Positions 51,567 to 59,707 of a DNA stretch of 64,000 nucleotides are shown in pieces. Below the pieces are notes generated by a model. It ran no database searches. It was not told the DNA's origin and was given only the letters and a program-made list of their open reading frames with translations. Origin of the DNA: Streptacidiphilus sp. ASG 303 (GTDB taxonomy: Bacteria; Actinomycetota; Actinomycetes; Streptomycetales; Streptomycetaceae). The first letter of the stretch is position 1. Every line of letters starts with the position of its first letter. The DNA lies in assembly GCF_020991365.1 (NCBI RefSeq), contig NZ_JAJLRA010000009.1, forward strand, positions 124,001 to 188,000, given 5' to 3'. The translations under genes and the position numbers were made by a program.

Positions 51567-52292
51567 GTGAGAATCCTGGTGGTCGAGGACGAGCGCGGCC
51601 TGGCGGAGACCCTCCGGCGCGGCCTGTCCGCGGAGGGCTTCGCGGTCGACCTGGCGCACGACGGGCGCGAGGGCCTGTGGAAGGCCCGCACCGGCGACTA
51701 CGCCCTGATCGTGCTGGACCTGATGCTCCCCCTCCTCAACGGCTACCGGGTCTGCGCGCAGCTGCGGCGCGAGGGGGTGCACACCCCGATCCTGGTGCTG
51801 ACCGCGAAGGACGGCGACTGGGACCAGGCGGAGGCGCTGGACACCGGCGCGGACGACTACCTGGCGAAGCCGTTCTCGTACGTGGTCCTGGTGGCACGCC
51901 TGCGGGCGCTGCTGCGCCGACCCCGGACCGCGGTGTCCCCGCTGGCCGTCGTCGGGGACCTCACGGTGGACACGGCCGCCCGTACCTGCCGCCGGGCGGG
52001 CGTGCCGATCGCCCTGACGCCCCGTGAGTTCGCGGTGGCCGAGGTCCTCGCCCGCCGCTCCGGCGAGGTGGTGTCCAAGGGCGAGATCCTGGCGGAGGCC
52101 TGGCCGGACGAGGCGGAGGACCCCAACCTGGTCGAGGTGCGGATCAGCGGCCTGCGCCGGAAGATCGACGCGCCGTTCGGACGCCGGTCGCTGGAGACGG
52201 TGCGCGGCGCCGGCTACCGACTGGTCGACGACCGCCGCGGCGACGACGACGGCAGCCGTGGAGACGGCGACGGCGGGAGCCTCGATGGCTAG
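51567..52292 (+). CDS. OmpR/PhoB family response regulator
   Basis: A 241-residue two-domain regulator. The receiver (1-115) has the acidic pair in VVEDERGL, phospho-acceptor Asp51 in VLDLMLPLLNGY, the Thr in LVLTAKDG and Lys in DDYLAKPF. The winged helix (about 130-222) reads ALTPREFAVAEVLARRSGEVV, then VEVRISGLRRKID and TVRGAGYRLV. A charged Asp/Gly/Arg tail follows. GTG 51567 is used; it may be leaderless. The gene overlaps the histidine kinase by 8 bp, and CTGACC direct repeats lie just upstream, suggesting autoregulation. Confidence 0.95.
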   Translation: MRILVVEDERGLAETLRRGLSAEGFAVDLAHDGREGLWKARTGDYALIVLDLMLPLLNGYRVCAQLRREGVHTPILVLTAKDGDWDQAEALDTGADDYLAKPFSYVVLVARLRALLRRPRTAVSPLAVVGDLTVDTAARTCRRAGVPIALTPREFAVAEVLARRSGEVVSKGEILAEAWPDEAEDPNLVEVRISGLRRKIDAPFGRRSLETVRGAGYRLVDDRRGDDDGSRGDGDGGSLDG

Positions 52293-53985
52293 CCGCCGAC
52301 GGGTGGGGCCGCGCTCGGTCCGGGCCCGGTCCGCGCTGGCCGCCGGGGCGGCGTCCGCCGTCCTCTTCACCGGCGGCGCGCTGTGGACGCACCACCAGGT
52401 CCGCGACCAGGCCATGGCCACCACCCGGGCGCAGGCGCAGGACGAACTCGCACGCCTCCTGGAGGTCGTCGGCGGGGGCGCACTCCCGTCCGAGGCGTGG
52501 GGGGACTTCCCCTACGAGGTCACCGCGGGCGGCAGCCGCGTCCCCCTCGCCTCCAGCCCGGACATGGAGCCCTTCGAGCGGGCGGCCGGCACGGTGCTGC
52601 CCCCTCCCGGAAAGGGGGGCGCTGGACTGGTCGGCGACCGGCACGAGGTCCGGTTCGGCAGGCCCCCGGGCACCGCGGGCAGCCCGCTCGCGGGCCGGAC
52701 GTTCACCGCCGTCAGCGGCGACCTGTCGGTCGCCGCCTCCCGCCCGCGGCCACCGGCGGTCCTCGCCGGGGACCTCGCCGACGACGACGCCGTCCGGGTG
52801 TACGTCGTCGTCACCCCGTTCGGGGCCGACCGTGCGGCGGGTGCCGTCGACCGGCTCCTGGCGCCGGCGGTCCCGGCAGCCGTGCTGGTCGTCGCCGGCA
52901 CCGCCTACCTCGCCACCCGGCGCGCACTGCGGCCGGTCGAGGCGATCCGTGCCCGCACGGCGGCGGTCACCGCGTCCGACCCGCGCGAACGCGTGGACGT
53001 CCCCGACACCGGCGACGAGATCGCCGCGCTCGCGGTGACGATCAACGCCACCCTGGAGCGGCTGGACCGGGCGGCGTCCGAGCAGCGGCGCTTCGTCGCC
53101 GACGCCGCCCACGAGCTGCGCAGCCCGGTGGCGGGACTGCTGGCCGCGCTGGAGGTGTCCCTGGCCTACCCGGAGCGGACGGACTGGCCCGCGGCCACGG
53201 AGGAGGCCGCGGGCCAGGCCCGGCGCCTGCAGACGCTGGCGGAGGACCTGCTCCTCCTGGCCCGCCTGGACGCCGGTTCCGCGGCCGGTACGGCCGCGGG
53301 CCGGGCGGTGGACCTGAGGGCGCTGGCCTCCGGTGTGGTGGCGGACCACGCCGCCGGCCGCGCGGCGGGGACGTCCGGACCGCAGGTCGTCGTCACGGCC
53401 GCGGCGGACCCGGCGGCCACGGAGTCGGCGGCCACGGAGCCGGCGGCCACGGGCGCGGTAGAAGCAGACCCAACGGCCACGGACCCGGCGGCCACGGACG
53501 CGGTGGCCACGGACGCGGTGGCAGCGGACCCGGCCGTGGTGCGGGGAAGTCCCGTGCTGCTGGAGCGGGTCCTGCGCAACCTGCTGGACAACGCGGTCCG
53601 GCACGCCCGCACCCGCGTCGAGGTCGCGGTCGCCCGCGTCCCCGGCGGCGGCGCGGGCGGGAGCACGGGCGGCGCGGAGGTGGTGGTGCGGGTCTCCGAC
53701 GACGGCGACGGCGTGCCGCCGGCCGACCGGGAGCGGGTCTTCGACCGCTTCACGCGGCTGGACGCGGCCCGCGACCGGGGCAGCGGCGGCGCGGGCCTCG
53801 GTCTCGCCATCGCCCGCGACCTCGCCGCCCGCCACGGCGGCACGCTCGCGGTGGACCCCGCGGCGCGGTCCGGAGCGTGCTTCGTCCTGCGCCTCCCCGC
53901 GGCGGAGGGGCCGGGAGCGGCCGGGACGGCTCCGGTGGGGGTACGGCCGCTCCTAGAAGGAGCGCCACCAGTCCCGGCACGGTGA
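52285..53985 (+). CDS. Two-component sensor histidine kinase
   Basis: A 566-residue membrane kinase partnered with the upstream regulator. Helix 1 is at about residues 14-34, an external sensor region spans 35-180, helix 2 lies near 190-210, HAMP at 212-262, and the dimerisation helix has phospho-acceptor His276 in DAAHELRSPVAGL. The ATP domain shows NLLDNAVRHA, the DDGDGVPPADRERVFDRF motif and GGAGLGLAIARDLA. Between the His helix and the N-box there is an odd Ala/Thr/Asp-rich insert (53400-53535, repeats of PAATD/ESAAT). ATG 52285 follows GGGAG and overlaps the previous gene. The signal sensed is unknown. Confidence 0.94.
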   Translation: MASRRRVGPRSVRARSALAAGAASAVLFTGGALWTHHQVRDQAMATTRAQAQDELARLLEVVGGGALPSEAWGDFPYEVTAGGSRVPLASSPDMEPFERAAGTVLPPPGKGGAGLVGDRHEVRFGRPPGTAGSPLAGRTFTAVSGDLSVAASRPRPPAVLAGDLADDDAVRVYVVVTPFGADRAAGAVDRLLAPAVPAAVLVVAGTAYLATRRALRPVEAIRARTAAVTASDPRERVDVPDTGDEIAALAVTINATLERLDRAASEQRRFVADAAHELRSPVAGLLAALEVSLAYPERTDWPAATEEAAGQARRLQTLAEDLLLLARLDAGSAAGTAAGRAVDLRALASGVVADHAAGRAAGTSGPQVVVTAAADPAATESAATEPAATGAVEADPTATDPAATDAVATDAVAADPAVVRGSPVLLERVLRNLLDNAVRHARTRVEVAVARVPGGGAGGSTGGAEVVVRVSDDGDGVPPADRERVFDRFTRLDAARDRGSGGAGLGLAIARDLAARHGGTLAVDPAARSGACFVLRLPAAEGPGAAGTAPVGVRPLLEGAPPVPAR

Positions 53986-54286
53986 ACGATGCATGAGCCG
54001 ATCGTACGGTCCGGCCCTCCTGCGTGCACGCGCCTTTCCCGCAGGCGCCGCTCCGCGAGGGCGCCGTACGGGCACGGGACGGGCGTTCACCGCTTCCGCG
54101 CATCCCGGGGCCGGCGGAGGCGGTGAACGCCGCGCGCCCGGTGCACGTCATGTCCTCGCCCCCGCAGGGCCCCGGGGGCGGGGGAATCCGCTCCGCGGTT
54201 TCCTGTTATGCCGGTCCCGTGCAGGCGTCTGCTGAGGTGGGGCCGCCCGGAACGGAAGGGCGGTGCGAGACGACAGGTGGTCGACG
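53986..54286. other. Promoter region of the sigma-factor fusion gene
   Basis: 301 bp without a gene. It contains a hairpin CGCCCCCG/CGGGGGCG (54157-54164 with 54173-54180) and, just after it, a possible ECF-type promoter. No terminator is clear after the kinase gene. Confidence 0.5.
54183..54209 (+). promoter_or_regulatory. Possible ECF-type promoter of the sigma-factor fusion
   Basis: GGAAT (54183-54187) and TGTTAT (54204-54209) are separated by 16 bp. GGAA-type -35 elements are common for ECF sigma factors, which frequently control their own genes. The match is short and unproven. Confidence 0.25.
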
Positions 54287-57199
54287 ATGAGGGTGAGCGG
54301 TACGGACGTGCGTGGGGACGCCGACCTGGTGCGGGCGGCGCAGGCCGGGGACGCGCAGGCGCTGGAGGCGCTGGTGCGGCGGTCGGTGCCGCTGGTCTAC
54401 AACCTGGTGGGCCGGGCGCTGGGCGGCGGCCAGGACGTGGACGACCTGGTGCAGGAGACGATGCTCCGCGTGCTGGGGGCGCTCGGCGGCCTGCGGGAGC
54501 CCGAGCGGTACCGGTCCTGGCTGGTGACGATCGCGCTGCGGCAGGTCAGGGACCGGTGGCGGTCGGGGTCGGCCGCCCCCGAGGCGGCGGCCGACCTGGC
54601 GGAGCTGGAGGAGCGGCGGCCGCAGGCGGGGGTCCGGTTCGAGGAGTGGGCGATCTGGCGGCTGCGGCTCGGCGGCCAGCGCCGGGAGACCGCCGCCGCG
54701 GCGGCGTGGCTGGACGAGCAGCACCGGCACACCGCCGCCCTGTGGTGGCTGGAGGTCGCCGGGGAGCTGACCCGGGGTGAGGTGGCCGGAGCGCTCGGGG
54801 TGGGCGCGGCGCACGCGGCGGTGCGCGTCCAGCGGATGCGCGGGCAGCTGGACGTGTGCCGGGCGGTGGTCCGCGCCCTGGAGGCGCACGGCGCCGCCGC
54901 GCCCGGGGACGGGTGCGACCTGCTGGGCTCCCTGGTCGACGGCTGGGACGGGGTGCCGTCGGCCCTGATGCGCAAGCGGCTGGCCAGGCACCTGCGGGCC
55001 TGCCCGTCCTGCCGGCGGTTCGGCGAGGGCCTGGTGCCGGCGGAGGGGCTGCTGACCGGCCTGGGCCTGGTGCCGCTGCCGCCCGGCCTGGACGCGCACC
55101 TCTCCGGTGCCCTGGCGGGGCTCCCGGCCGGACCCGGGACGACCGCCGCCACCGGGCCCGGGGGACACACGGCCGGAACCGGGGGGCACGCGGCCAAGTC
55201 CGGGGGGCACGCGCCCGGAACCGGGGGGCACGCGGCCGACGCGGCGGTGCGCGGCGCCCGGGCGGCCCGGCGGGCGGGCCGGGCGCGTCCGGGCCTGCAG
55301 GCCCTGGCGGTGAAGTCCACCGTCGGCGCGGCGGCCGTCGCCGCGGCGGCCGCGGCGGTCGCGGTCGCCCTGCCGCCGCGGCAGGACCTCGCCTCCGCGC
55401 ACCCGTCCGCCCCCTCCCCGTCGGCCGCGGTGCGGTCGGCGACGGCCGCACCGGTCCCGCAGCCGCGTCCGCAGTCCTCGGCGGTGCCGACCCGCACCAG
55501 CCGCTCGCAGCGGTCCGCACCCGCGATGGCCGACACCGGCTACCCGGTCCCGGCCCGGCCGGCCCGTCCCACGGGCAGGACCTACTACGTGAGCCCCGGC
55601 GGCTCGGACAGCAACCCGGGGACCTCGCCCCGGGCGCCCCTGCGCACCATCCAGCGGGCCGCGGACCTGACCGCGCCCGGCGACACCGTGTCGGTCATGA
55701 ACGGCACGTACACGGAGGCACGCGAGGGCCTGGACGTCGTCCGCATCACCCGCTCGGGCGGGCCCGGACGGCCCATCACCTACCAGGCCTACCCGGGCCA
55801 CCACCCCGTGATCCACCCCGTCACCGGCTGGAACGGGATCTCCGTCTCCGGCGCCTCCTACATCACCGTCCGCGGCCTGGACATCCGGGGCACCCGCGCC
55901 TCGCTGTCCCTGGCGGACGCGGAACGGCACTCCGTCCCCGGCAGGCCGGCCTTCAACACGAACTGCCTGTCGGCGGCGAAGGGCTATCGGAGCTTCCCGC
56001 ACCACCTCACGATCACCGGCAACCTCGTCCACGACTGCCCCGGGGCGGGCATCTCGGTGGCCGACGCCGACCACGTCACGATCGACCGGAACCGCGTCCA
56101 CTCGACCTCCTGGTACACCGCGTACGGCACCAGCGGCATCTCCGTCCTGCGGGCCCGGGACGTGGACCGCGGCGACCCCTCCCGCTACAAGATCCGCGTC
56201 ACCCGCAACGTGTCCTACGACAACGAGACCAAGGTCAAGTGGGAGGGCTGCCACTGCTACTCGGACGGCAACGGCATCATCATCGACACCCTCAAGGACA
56301 AGGGGGGCGACGGGCCGGACTACCGGGGCCGCGTCCTGGTCGCCGGCAACGTGTCCTTCGACAACGGCGGGTCCGGGATCCACTCCTTCAAGGGCATCCA
56401 CGTCGACATCGTCAACAACACCGCGTTCATGAACGGCCGCAGCCCCCGGATGAAGTACTACGGCGACATCTTCGCCGCGAACAGCACCGACGTGCGCCTG
56501 CTCGACAACATCGCCTACGCCCGGCCGGGCGGGTACGTGAACTCGAAGTCCCGCAACGTCCGTGTCACCTACGACTACAACGTCTACTTCAACGGGCGGC
56601 GGCCCGAGGTGAAGGGCCCCCACGACATCGTCGCCGACCCGCTGTTCGCCAGGCCCGGCACCGTCTTCGGGGAGGCCGACTTCCGGCTGCGCCCCCACTC
56701 GCCGGCCGCCGGCACCGGACTCCCCTTCCCGGCGGCCCAGGGGTCCGGCCCCGCCCGTGGCGGCCGCCGCGCCCCCGACCGCGGCGCACTCCTGAGCGGC
56801 GTCCCGCTGGGCGGCGCGGCGGACGGCCTCCCGGCGTCGGCGGTGTCCGGCCCCGGGGGCGCGGACGGTCCCGCGCCGGGGGCGGACGGCCCTGCAGCGG
56901 GGATGGAGGGCTCCGCTGCGGGAGCGGCCGGCCCGGGGGACGGGACCGGGGCCGGGACCACCGCACGTCCCGGCAAGGGAGCCGTGGCCGCCCCGTCCGG
57001 GAGGGGCGGTGCCACGGAGCACGCCGCGGAGGCGGGCGCCCTGCCCGCCGGGCAGGCCCCCGCGGACAGCCCGGCGGACGGAGGCCGGACCCTGGCGCAC
57101 ACCGGGGCCGACCTGGCACCGCTGGGCGCCGGGGCGGCCGCCCTCGTCGCCGGGGGCGCGCTGTTCCTGGAGGCGCGCCGCCGTCGGCGGCGTTCCTGA
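54287..57199 (+). CDS. ECF sigma factor fused to zinc finger, membrane anchor, beta-helix and LAHTG sortase signal
   Basis: A 970-residue fusion. Residues 11-95 are sigma region 2 (DADLVRAAQAGDAQALE, DVDDLVQETMLRVLGAL, RSWLVTIALRQVRDRWR). About 145-195 is a region 4-like helix-turn-helix (GELTRGEVAGALGVGAA). His235-x3-Cys239-x2-Cys242 (RHLRACPSCRRF) matches an anti-sigma zinc finger. GGH repeats (about 285-320) precede a basic stretch and an Ala-rich membrane helix near 342-362. Outside, a DUF1565/pectate-lyase-like beta-helix spans about 430-815 (TYYVSPGGSDSNPGTSP at its start). After a Pro/Ala/Gly linker come LAHTG at 936-940, a hydrophobic helix and RRRRR: a class E sortase signal. ATG 54287 follows AGGTGG; an in-frame GTG lies at 54263. 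Confidence 0.9.
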   Translation: MRVSGTDVRGDADLVRAAQAGDAQALEALVRRSVPLVYNLVGRALGGGQDVDDLVQETMLRVLGALGGLREPERYRSWLVTIALRQVRDRWRSGSAAPEAAADLAELEERRPQAGVRFEEWAIWRLRLGGQRRETAAAAAWLDEQHRHTAALWWLEVAGELTRGEVAGALGVGAAHAAVRVQRMRGQLDVCRAVVRALEAHGAAAPGDGCDLLGSLVDGWDGVPSALMRKRLARHLRACPSCRRFGEGLVPAEGLLTGLGLVPLPPGLDAHLSGALAGLPAGPGTTAATGPGGHTAGTGGHAAKSGGHAPGTGGHAADAAVRGARAARRAGRARPGLQALAVKSTVGAAAVAAAAAAVAVALPPRQDLASAHPSAPSPSAAVRSATAAPVPQPRPQSSAVPTRTSRSQRSAPAMADTGYPVPARPARPTGRTYYVSPGGSDSNPGTSPRAPLRTIQRAADLTAPGDTVSVMNGTYTEAREGLDVVRITRSGGPGRPITYQAYPGHHPVIHPVTGWNGISVSGASYITVRGLDIRGTRASLSLADAERHSVPGRPAFNTNCLSAAKGYRSFPHHLTITGNLVHDCPGAGISVADADHVTIDRNRVHSTSWYTAYGTSGISVLRARDVDRGDPSRYKIRVTRNVSYDNETKVKWEGCHCYSDGNGIIIDTLKDKGGDGPDYRGRVLVAGNVSFDNGGSGIHSFKGIHVDIVNNTAFMNGRSPRMKYYGDIFAANSTDVRLLDNIAYARPGGYVNSKSRNVRVTYDYNVYFNGRRPEVKGPHDIVADPLFARPGTVFGEADFRLRPHSPAAGTGLPFPAAQGSGPARGGRRAPDRGALLSGVPLGGAADGLPASAVSGPGGADGPAPGADGPAAGMEGSAAGAAGPGDGTGAGTTARPGKGAVAAPSGRGGATEHAAEAGALPAGQAPADSPADGGRTLAHTGADLAPLGAGAAALVAGGALFLEARRRRRRS

Positions 57200-57415: not shown

Positions 57416-58234
57416 TCAGCGCGGGCCGGCGGGCGGCAGGACGCCGCGGCAGCCCGGGAGCGGGGCGGGGTGGCCGGGGGCGGGGCCGGCGGCCCGGCGC
57501 TCGCGGTCGCGTTCGGCGCCCTCCCGCACCGCCCGGTGCACGGCGCGGGCCAGCCGGGCGCCCCAGAGGGAGCGGGGTCCGCCGAAGGGTTCGGCGGGGC
57601 GGCCGGGCCCAGGGGTCCGCACCGCCACGCAGACCGCGTCGGAGGGGGTGCCGGAGCAGTCGTAGCCGGCGTCGAGCAGGGCCTGCACCTTGGCCTCGGC
57701 CGCCGTGGTGGCGAGGTTGACCAGGCCCGCGTCGGTGACCGCCGCCGGGACGACCGCGAGGATGTTGACCGTGCCGGGGACATAGGGCGCGGCCGACCCG
57801 GCACGGGCTGAGGCACCGGCAGGGGCCGTTCCGGTCGGGTCCGGGGCCGCCGCCCAGACGGGCACCCCGATGCCGGAGGTCACCACTGCGGTCACCCCGC
57901 CGTCGACCGCCCGGGTGACGTCGTCCACCTCCGCGGCGGTCATCAGGCCCACGCCCTCACCGGCGAGGCCGTGCGCCGCGGCGAGCCGGGCGAGGTGCCG
58001 GTCGGGGTCCATGCGCGCGTACCCGGCGCGGACCTGGGCGTTCACCACCCAGTGCCGCTCGCCGAGGCCGCCGCCGAGGACGGCGCTGCTGACCATCCGC
58101 CAGCCCGGACCGGCCCGCCAGACGAGCAGGTGGCGGCAGGCGCCGTCCTCCGTGCGGCAGGAGCGCTCGACCACGACGCCCGGCGGCGGGCAGCCCTCCT
58201 CCGGCCCGCGGGCCTCCTCCCGCAGCAGCGTCAC
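57416..58234 (-). CDS. cbiZ: Adenosylcobinamide amidohydrolase CbiZ
   Basis: A 272-residue enzyme that removes the aminopropanol side chain from adenosylcobinamide to give adenosylcobyric acid, a cobamide salvage and remodelling step. Family motifs seen are SSAVLGGGLGERHWVVNAQV, GVGLMTAAEVDDVTRA, AVVTSGIGVPVWA, GTVNILAVVPAAVTDAGLVN and EAKVQALLDAGYDCSGTPSDA. The length is near normal. GTG 58234 follows AGGGAGGGG by five bases; the frame upstream runs through a 15-bp tandem repeat and is not coding. No cobalamin riboswitch or other cobalamin gene is adjacent, so it is an orphan. Confidence 0.93.
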   Translation of the reverse strand: MTLLREEARGPEEGCPPPGVVVERSCRTEDGACRHLLVWRAGPGWRMVSSAVLGGGLGERHWVVNAQVRAGYARMDPDRHLARLAAAHGLAGEGVGLMTAAEVDDVTRAVDGGVTAVVTSGIGVPVWAAAPDPTGTAPAGASARAGSAAPYVPGTVNILAVVPAAVTDAGLVNLATTAAEAKVQALLDAGYDCSGTPSDAVCVAVRTPGPGRPAEPFGGPRSLWGARLARAVHRAVREGAERDRERRAAGPAPGHPAPLPGCRGVLPPAGPR

Positions 58235-58275
58235 CGTCGCCCCTCCCTGTCGCGGCCGTGCGGCCGTCACGGCCG

Positions 58276-58350
58276 GTCCGTCCGGCAGCCGTCCGTCCGA
58301 CAGCTGTCCGTCAGGCAGCCGTCCGTCCGGCAGCCGTCCGCCGGGCAGTC
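58276..58350. repeat. 15-bp tandem repeat, five copies
   Basis: Five abutting units related to gtccgtccggcagcc lie at 58276-58290, 58291-58305, 58306-58320, 58321-58335 and 58336-58350; the first and fourth are identical. They sit just upstream of cbiZ, within its likely promoter region. Confidence 0.92.
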
Positions 58351-58441
58351 TCCCAGACCGGCCCGGACGGCCCGGCGGGCGGGACCGCCCCGCCCGGCAC
58401 CGGGACCGCCGGCGCCGCCCGGTGCCGCCGCCGCGGCAGCG

Positions 58442-58500
58442 GGGGGCCGCCTCCTGTGACGCGGCGTCAGACCGGCTGCACGTCACGGGAGGCGGCCCCC
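58442..58500 (-). terminator. Long hairpin terminator after alcohol dehydrogenase gene
   Basis: Arms 58442-58461 and 58481-58500 match at 19 of 20 positions around a 19-base loop. The hairpin lies 22 bp beyond the stop of the leftward dehydrogenase gene and separates it from cbiZ. Confidence 0.88.
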
Positions 58501-58522
58501 GGCACCCTCCCGGGGTCCCGGC

Positions 58523-59707
58523 TCAGGGCTTGAAGAGCACCTTGACGGCGCCGTCCTCCTTCTTCTGGAACATCGCGTACGCCTCGGGCGCCTTCTCCAG
58601 CGGGACCCGGTGGGTGGCGAAGTCGTCGACGCCGAGGGGGTCGGCGTCGGTGAGCAGCGGCAGGATGTCGCCGACCCAGCGGTGGACGTTGGCCTGGCCC
58701 ATCCGCAGCTGGATCTGCTTGTCGAACATGGTGAGCAGCGGCATCGGGTCGGCCATGCCGCCGTAGACGCCGGAGACGGAGACGGTGCCGCCGCGGCGGA
58801 CGAGGCCGATGGCGAGGTGGAGGGCGCTGAGGCGGTCCAGGCCGGCGTTCTCCATGAGCTTCGCGGCGAGGGCGTCGGGCAGCAGTCCGGTCAGCTGCTG
58901 GGCGAGCTTGCCGACGGGGGCGCCGTGGGCCTCCATGCCGACGGCGTCGATGACGGCGTCGGGGCCCCGGCCGCCGGTGAGGTCGCGGACGGCGTCGACC
59001 AGGTGCTTCCCGTGCTCGCGCAGGTCCAGGGCGTGGACGCCGCGGGCGCGGGCCCGCTCCAGGCGCTCCGGGACGAGGTCCACCCCGATGACGGTGCCCG
59101 CGCCGCGGTGGGCCGCGATGCGGGCGGCCATGTCGCCGATCGGTCCGAGGCCGAGGACGGCGACGCTGCCCCCGGGCGGCACGGCCGCGTACTCGACGGC
59201 CTGCCAGGCGGTGGGCAGCACGTCGGAGAGGTAGACGAAGCGCTCGTCGGGCGGCCCGTCGGGCACGGCGATCGGGAGGGTGTTCCCGAAGGGCACCCGC
59301 AGATACTCGGCCTGGCCGCCGGGGACCTGGCCGTAGAGCTTGGTGTAGCCGAACAGGGACGCGCCGGTGCCGTACTCGTGGACCTGCGTGGTCTCGCACT
59401 GCGAGTGCAGCCCCTGCCCGCACATGAAGCAGGTGCCGCAGGAGACGTTGAAGGGCACGACCACGCGGTCGCCGGGGCGCACCGCGGTGACCTCGGGCCC
59501 GACCTCCTGGACGACGCCCATCGGCTCGTGGCCGAGGATGTCGCCCTCGTCGATGAACGGCCCGAAGAGCTCGTAGAGGTGGAGGTCGGACCCGCACAGG
59601 CCGGTGGTGGTGATCCTGACGATCACGTCGGCCGGGTCCTTGATCGCCGGGTCGGGCACGGTGTCCACGCGGACGTCGCGCTTGCCGTGCCAGGTCAGGG
59701 CTCTCAT
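58523..59707 (-). CDS. Zinc-dependent alcohol dehydrogenase (MDR family)
   Basis: A 394-residue medium-chain dehydrogenase. Catalytic zinc ligands are in TGLCGSDLH (Cys) and GHEPMG (His-Glu). The structural zinc lobe is CGTCFMCGQGLHSQC. The cofactor-binding Rossmann turn is VAVLGLGPIGDMAARIAA, followed by GVDLVPERLERAR, where the Asp prefers NAD. The insert around residues 250-290 is typical of the glutathione-independent formaldehyde dehydrogenase-like group, so an aldehyde or alcohol of that sort is a reasonable substrate class. ATG 59707 follows GGAGGAG. It ends at a strong terminator and seems monocistronic. Confidence 0.93.
   Translation of the reverse strand: MRALTWHGKRDVRVDTVPDPAIKDPADVIVRITTTGLCGSDLHLYELFGPFIDEGDILGHEPMGVVQEVGPEVTAVRPGDRVVVPFNVSCGTCFMCGQGLHSQCETTQVHEYGTGASLFGYTKLYGQVPGGQAEYLRVPFGNTLPIAVPDGPPDERFVYLSDVLPTAWQAVEYAAVPPGGSVAVLGLGPIGDMAARIAAHRGAGTVIGVDLVPERLERARARGVHALDLREHGKHLVDAVRDLTGGRGPDAVIDAVGMEAHGAPVGKLAQQLTGLLPDALAAKLMENAGLDRLSALHLAIGLVRRGGTVSVSGVYGGMADPMPLLTMFDKQIQLRMGQANVHRWVGDILPLLTDADPLGVDDFATHRVPLEKAPEAYAMFQKKEDGAVKVLFKP

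Follow-up and report, generated by a model that had tools for sequence, protein, structure and literature searches.

The window analysed here, a 64,000-nucleotide stretch of Streptacidiphilus sp. ASG 303 (contig NZ_JAJLRA010000009.1, positions 124,001 to 188,000), contains a forward-strand gene at 54287-57199 that encodes, in one protein, an extracytoplasmic function (ECF) sigma factor, a zinc anti-sigma-like module, a transmembrane (TM) helix, a right-handed beta-helix domain and a C-terminal sortase signal. A promoter-like motif lies ahead of the gene and of its sorted orthologues. Taken together, the gene probably encodes a self-regulating one-protein sigma switch, whose sensor would be sorted to the cell wall and whose sigma factor would be released by proteolysis. 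Its features are given below in window positions; handles beginning with L and G denote the loci and genomes used for comparison.

54204-54230, + strand: putative self-promoter TGTTAT-N16-CGTCT, beginning 83 nt before the ATG; single exact match in the genome.
54287-57199, + strand: whole gene (sigma factor, zinc anti-sigma-like module, TM helix, beta-helix, sorting signal), 970 aa; full-length orthologues L001, L002, L007, L040 and L041.
54371-54565, + strand: sigma-70 region 2, residues 29-93; Pfam PF04542 (Sigma70_r2), E 1.7e-16, above cut-off.
54716-54880, + strand: sigma region 4-like helices, approximately residues 144-198; helices 144-157, 163-170 and 174-203 in a low-confidence model.
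54914-55012, + strand: zinc anti-sigma-like motif C210...H235-x3-C239-x2-C242.
55316-55372, + strand: membrane helix 1, residues 344-362, the best 19-residue window (mean hydropathy 2.03).
55373-55582, + strand: Pro/Ser-rich stalk, predicted extracytoplasmic, residues 363-432; at the same position in relatives.
55583-56800, + strand: right-handed beta-helix, residues 433-838, with a conserved core that extends to about residue 814; the fold resembles PL9/Pel9A (Pfam, AlphaFold2 and Foldseek).
57092-57106, + strand: LAHTG sortase motif, residues 936-940; LAxTG conserved across orthologues.
57113-57196, + strand: hydrophobic helix 943-961 (mean hydropathy 1.86) and Arg-rich tail.

The initial annotation, made from the sequence of the window alone, had described this domain order from the sigma factor to LAHTG with its hydrophobic helix and Arg tail, and profiles, alignment and hydropathy all recovered it. 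It had also raised the concern that a frameshift around 55300-55580 might have joined two genes. The gene is a single uninterrupted open reading frame, its GC content at third codon positions (GC3) is 0.84-1.00 in all 19 blocks of 150 nt (55337-55637 included), and five full-length orthologues are likewise encoded in one frame. A frameshift artefact at 54287-57199 was thus ruled out, and the fusion of sigma factor and beta-helix in one protein is real.

Among these orthologues, L001 and L002 came from the scan of genome contigs and are probably the genes of G374 and G039, which have the same open-frame lengths; they were counted once. The same scan gave L003, cut at a contig end, and the frame-broken L005. 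Further full-length fusions were found in two genomes (L040, L041) and on an S. cyaneofuscatus plasmid (L007). The window protein is 48-51% identical to L001, L002 and L007, and for the sigma part alone identity is as low as 45-46% in comparison with L001, L007 and L041. At L005 (4974-7888, Streptomyces sp. WAC08241), the gene is split over several frames, by decay or by sequencing errors.

Besides the clear profile match of sigma region 2, the TIGR02937 model (sigma70-ECF) scored 43.9 bits over residues 25-188, just above its cut-off (42.9). The H-x3-C-x2-C finger initially described (His235, Cys239, Cys242) held up and gained Cys210 as a further conserved ligand candidate: all four residues are invariant in an alignment of ten sequences, and the C..Hx3Cx2C pattern is present in 115/115 distinct members of the wider family presented below. 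By analogy, this zinc module would inhibit the attached sigma factor.

The strongest hydrophobic segments of the protein are residues 344-362 and 943-961, and L001, L002, L007 and L041 have a hydrophobic stretch at the place equivalent to the first. The net charge is +6 in the 30 residues before this helix and +1 in the 30 after it, so an N-in orientation is predicted. The N-in/C-out topology suggested from the sequence is therefore supported by charge and hydropathy prediction, and a hydrophobic segment lies where the membrane helix was expected. Concerning the C-terminus, LAxTG was found in seven of eight orthologues (counting the window gene, the frame-broken L005 and L003, whose N-terminus is missing at the contig end) and MARTG in the eighth, L040; in all eight, a hydrophobic stretch and then a basic tail come after the pentapeptide. 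Five sortase-domain genes were found in the genome of the window. Four of them could be classified above cut-offs, as two tandem class E sortases (NF033747) and two of class F, the fifth being L020. One class E sortase (L017) matches SrtE1 of S. coelicolor (5cuw) at 2.2e-39, so the expectation that the genome would encode a sortase of this class was borne out. On these features, the protein would fit the pattern of a class E sortase substrate.

Outside the membrane, the region of the proposed beta-helix matched the Pfam family Beta_helix (1.3e-11), with DUF1565 and NosD also above cut-off. Structural neighbours in the PDB, obtained with Foldseek, were the pectate lyase Pel9A, GH136 lacto-N-biosidases and a PL9-type rhamnogalacturonan lyase. 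The best match was 1ru4 (Pel9A; E 6.5e-8), with a template modelling score (TM-score) of 0.41 from an AlphaFold2 model built on a five-sequence input with a mean predicted local distance difference test (pLDDT) of 69.6; the TM-scores of the best ten matches were 0.35-0.50, save one at 0.32. Sequence profiles agree with a PL9-like fold for the N-terminal part, the alignment with 5olq being significant only at profile positions 9-118. The Pel9A-like Pfam model scored 24.9 for the window protein, with a cut-off of 25.2, and exceeded the cut-off in L001, L002, L003 and L008. The Pfam matches and Pel9A-like neighbours thus corroborate the right-handed beta-helix, and the resemblance of the model to PL9 and GH136 proteins makes a carbohydrate a likely ligand.

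At E<=1e-80, the beta-helix domain was found in 12 of 394 Streptomycetaceae genomes, fused in one frame to a sigma factor in five and unfused in seven, a threshold that undercounts distant fusions such as L038 and L039; a class-level search at E<=1e-40 gave 2/394 genomes, both of Streptomycetaceae. An additional free form is carried on a plasmid (L008). All eight free beta-helix proteins (seven genomic and L008) end in LAxTG, and several have signal-peptide-like starts as judged by eye, those of L036 and L037 being ambiguous. As the beta-helix with LAxTG also occurs as a free protein, the tag travels with the beta-helix and not with the sigma factor. In G092 and G174, a free LAxTG beta-helix gene and a sigma/zinc/TM/beta-helix gene that has no sorting signal lie divergent from each other. 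Divergent pairs of this kind are found at L038 and L039.

A profile of the sigma/zinc part matched 230 of 297 Streptomycetaceae genomes in 10 of 17 genera (E<=1e-30), revealing a wider family of sigma/anti-sigma/membrane proteins. It was sampled from the high-scoring listed profile matches rather than at random: 130 loci (L042-L171; 30 as returned, 80 in list order and 20 picked mostly for long frames) comprised 126 C-terminally complete sequences and four with open ends (L045, L051, L063, L086), and removal of 11 duplicates left 115 distinct members. L045, L051 and L063 are sorted beta-helix fusions and stand outside the 115, and L086 is at a contig end. Based on a model built from seven family members, with the Pfam CAP family checked on L009, L013, L197 and L200, the outside domain was CAP in 109 of the 115; two were GH99-like, one had no assigned domain (L097) and three were frame-broken or masked (frames appear broken or reach masked letters in L076, L140 and L151, and also in L126). 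A sorting-type pentapeptide ([LIVM][AP]xTG) was found in the last 70 residues of 0/115, so that among the sampled members the tag appears confined to the beta-helix branch. The initial view, that the sortase-anchored beta-helix protein is an uncommon form within a class already known, is supported; the sampled wider family is mostly CAP.

Two less common architectures were seen in this family. L010 (4956-6965), which scores GH99 by Pfam and through which L165 and L166 are GH99-like by similarity, adjoins a gene annotated as a xylosidase. The outside domain of L097 is not of the CAP, GH99 or beta-helix type; among the tree rows, the sigma part of this member comes closest to that of the window protein (57-58%).

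The upstream motif was derived from an alignment of upstream regions. TGTTAT-N16-CGTC lies 78-87 nt ahead of the start in all seven sorted sigma/beta-helix genes with upstream DNA (L005 included). In exact form, TGTTAT-N17-RTCT has one match in the 7.0-Mb genome of the window and one in the window itself, the site at 54204-54230; five whole genomes together have nine exact sites, all of them 80-114 nt before a match to the family sigma profile, against a single match for the reversed control. The shorter form GTTA-N19-TCT was found within 330 nt upstream of 88/115 family genes (75 distinct instances), whereas 20 block-shuffled sets gave 0-2 and the opposite strand gave 5, and a form ending in TCTCC was present in 148/297 genomes (reversed control, 4/297). 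The gene is thus likely self-regulating through TGTTAT-N16-CGTCT, which its own sigma factor would recognise. This putative self-promoter is an addition to the initial annotation.

In relatives, the motif also precedes apparently exported proteins, among them free copies of the CAP domain. At the 34 sites of the 30 loci listed for the TCTCC-form search (not a random draw), the downstream gene encoded a family sigma factor at 12 and a free CAP protein at 10; the other 12 had a different gene or no clear one. This last group included an alginate-lyase-domain protein whose start resembles, by eye, a twin-arginine translocation (Tat) signal; proteins combining a basic start and a hydrophobic segment with a metallopeptidase match that fell below cut-off; a regulator with a BTAD domain; an AT-rich, chance-like site (L185); and two sites without a frame. 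The alginate-lyase-domain protein and the proteins with weak, sub-cut-off reprolysin-like matches (L199, L196, L202, L210) are candidate regulon members. Among 20 regions around motif sites chosen by eye, 12 held a family sigma gene, directly preceded in 11 by a free CAP gene in the same direction; the motif stood before the free CAP gene in 11/11 and before the sigma gene as well in 6/11. L230 has a sigma gene and the motif and no free CAP gene, and the CAP gene of L009 has only a looser motif site. The 11 loci with adjoining sigma/zinc anti-sigma/TM/CAP and free CAP genes and the same motif are L211-L214 and L216-L222. In CAP members, the outside domain thus often appears to mirror a neighbouring protein with the same promoter motif.

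In the proposed switch, the zinc anti-sigma-like module would block the activity of the N-terminal ECF sigma factor to which it is attached, and a single helix would span the membrane N-in, placing outside a beta-helix that binds or acts on polysaccharide. The class E signal at the C-terminus of the beta-helix would let SrtE join the protein to the wall. A signal from wall or polysaccharide, or a pull on the anchored domain, may then set off regulated proteolysis and free the sigma factor, which would read TGTTAT-N16-CGTCT before its own gene, the only clear target seen in its genome, and so produce more of the surface sensor.

Several observations weigh against this reading. Of the region 2 and region 4-like parts initially recognised in the sigma factor, the second was supported by TIGR02937 coverage and not by Pfam: none of the six families listed at E<=10 was a region-4 family, and the assignment therefore rests on TIGR02937 and the alignment. 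The zf-HC2 match at residues 220-243 scores 19.4 bits and misses the Pfam cut-off of 22.2, the predicted structure of the sigma/zinc part is weak (pLDDT 68.1; predicted template modelling score, pTM, 0.47), and this model had no structural match in the PDB at E<=0.001. Concerning the motif, the TCTCC form has no match in the genome of the window, because the site of this gene reads CGTCTG. With one mismatch allowed, six further sites were found in that genome against three in the reversed control, which is near background, so weak additional targets may exist. GTTA-N19-TCT is missing upstream of 27/115 family genes, including the GH99-like L165 and L166, and the motif was not found before the sigma/beta-helix genes without a sorting signal (L038, L039). 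Nor was it found before any of the eight free beta-helix genes, so a promoter shared by sensor and effector is unseen for the beta-helix. Lastly, the motif reported for the S. coelicolor ECF sigma factor SCO4117, CSGYN-17-SRHA, differs from TGTTAT-N16-CGTCT (PMC5826349).

The most specific form of the switch can be offered only tentatively. SrtE would join the intact protein to peptidoglycan, so that one polypeptide would connect the sigma factor, across the membrane, with the wall. Cutting would follow when wall or polysaccharide moves or is digested, and the released sigma factor would mainly read its own gene again. The gene could instead encode a self-amplifying surface protein that senses no ligand, the beta-helix being cut routinely close to the membrane and then delivered to the wall by the sortase, with the sigma factor only driving its own gene during a growth stage. 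Such a protein would agree with the sole exact motif site of the genome lying before this gene, with the existence of free LAxTG beta-helix proteins and with the lack of sorting-type signals in the 115 other family members. A zinc anti-sigma motif kept in all 115 would, however, be superfluous in a mere promoter-driver, and the motif precedes separate genes in relatives too; we regard this account as rather unlikely.

The order of sorting and cutting might also differ, the sigma factor being held at the membrane and the sortase acting only on a separately cleaved outer half, whose LAxTG would retain the shed sensor in the wall. Sortase and a site-1-type cleavage would both operate outside, and a covalent bridge from membrane to wall might be expected to strain in growing hyphae. 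The extracellular cleavage and its timing are nevertheless supposition, no search having been aimed at a cleavage site or protease, and we judge this order of events improbable. Far less credible still is a sequencing error or a recent accident fusing two genes: the broken frames of L005 and the unfused beta-helix in 7 of the 12 genomes would suit it, but the five other one-frame fusions contradict it, as do the even GC3 and the common upstream motif.

With regard to the history of the fusion, a beta-helix tree rejected a single clade of fused domains in the approximately unbiased (AU) test (p = 0.008 with 7 rows and 0.002 with 9 rows), free forms being interspersed, and the sigma tree was compatible with a single clade of fusions (p = 0.28 and 0.53). 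Branches were long in these trees, and all sampled non-GH99 rows were labelled CAP, though L097 and L151 have no match to the CAP model. The topologies may reflect either repeated domain joining or loss of the sigma factor in some lineages.

Sigma factors with a built-in anti-sigma module and outside domains are known and little studied. SCO4117 has been called the first characterised ECF52 member. Like the window protein, it unites in a single polypeptide an ECF sigma factor, a zinc finger, a TM region, a Pro-rich stretch and a C-terminal domain related to carbohydrates; it differs in having the carbohydrate-binding module smart00776 instead of a beta-helix (PMC5826349). Neither "sortase" nor "LPXTG" appears in the main text of that paper (PMC5826349). 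ECF53 members are actinobacterial and have a C-terminal fusion that comprises a zinc finger together with either one or two TM helices (PMC8999054). In some members of ECF52 and ECF53, glycosyl hydrolase domains as well as carbohydrate-binding ones have been predicted (PMC10766802), and proteolytic release has been proposed for ECF48, ECF52 and ECF53 (PMC8999054; PMC5826349). Judged by these group descriptions, the window protein is like ECF52 and ECF53 in having a zinc finger, a TM helix and a long C-terminal extension outside the cytoplasm, and the GH99-like members of its family (L010, L165, L166) are consistent with the description of ECF53. A sortase-tagged beta-helix was not met in the portions of the ECF53 descriptions available. 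Likewise, no description of a sortase-tagged sigma factor, of CAP-domain sigma factors or of the TGTTAT motif was found in the open-access literature to the extent that its text was accessible; the main ECF classification papers may list CAP or beta-helix members. Anti-sigma-fused ECF sigma factors with carbohydrate-type extensions are thus already known, and the additions made here are the sortase tag and the promoter motif.

More distant parallels exist for the separate parts of the switch. In the RsgI/sigma-I system, the sigma and anti-sigma factors are separate proteins and the sigma factor is not of the ECF type; we know of no sortase tag in RsgI and, to our knowledge, the sigma/anti-sigma fusion IutY has no wall anchor. 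RsgI of Clostridium thermocellum is a substrate-sensing membrane anti-sigma factor that is cut in its TM helix by RseP (PMC12203970). IutY of Pseudomonas putida (ECF243), a sigma factor fused to a membrane anti-sigma factor and freed by Prc and RseP, differs in responding to the siderophore aerobactin (PMC8999054).

Chaplins are class E sortase substrates and, as is also the case for SspA, CwpA and CwpB, surface proteins with ordinary secretion signals. The latter three, from Actinoplanes, have a C-terminal sorting signal handled by SrtE (PMC13251363). Unlike them, the window protein has a predicted cytoplasmic sigma factor as its N-terminal half.

If the proposed switch is correct, the sortase tag would link wall chemistry directly to transcription, and the amount of a wall-linked fragment should depend on SrtE, which would give a biochemical handle. 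The promoter motif of the family offers a reporter that is testable in Streptomyces. For CAP members, the shared promoters suggest a possible rule, namely that the fused sensor domain may predict a regulated effector under the same promoter.

No shared gene neighbourhood was seen across the sorted sigma/beta-helix fusions compared. Upstream of the gene, 51567-53985 contains a gene resembling a response regulator (51567-52292) and a frame resembling a histidine kinase, both named by eye, and no counterpart of these genes was seen beside the sigma/beta-helix gene in the relatives compared. Downstream, on the reverse strand, 57416-59707 holds two genes that were also assigned by eye: the one at 57416-58486 resembles an adenosylcobinamide amidohydrolase gene, and the one at 58523-59707 a zinc alcohol dehydrogenase gene.

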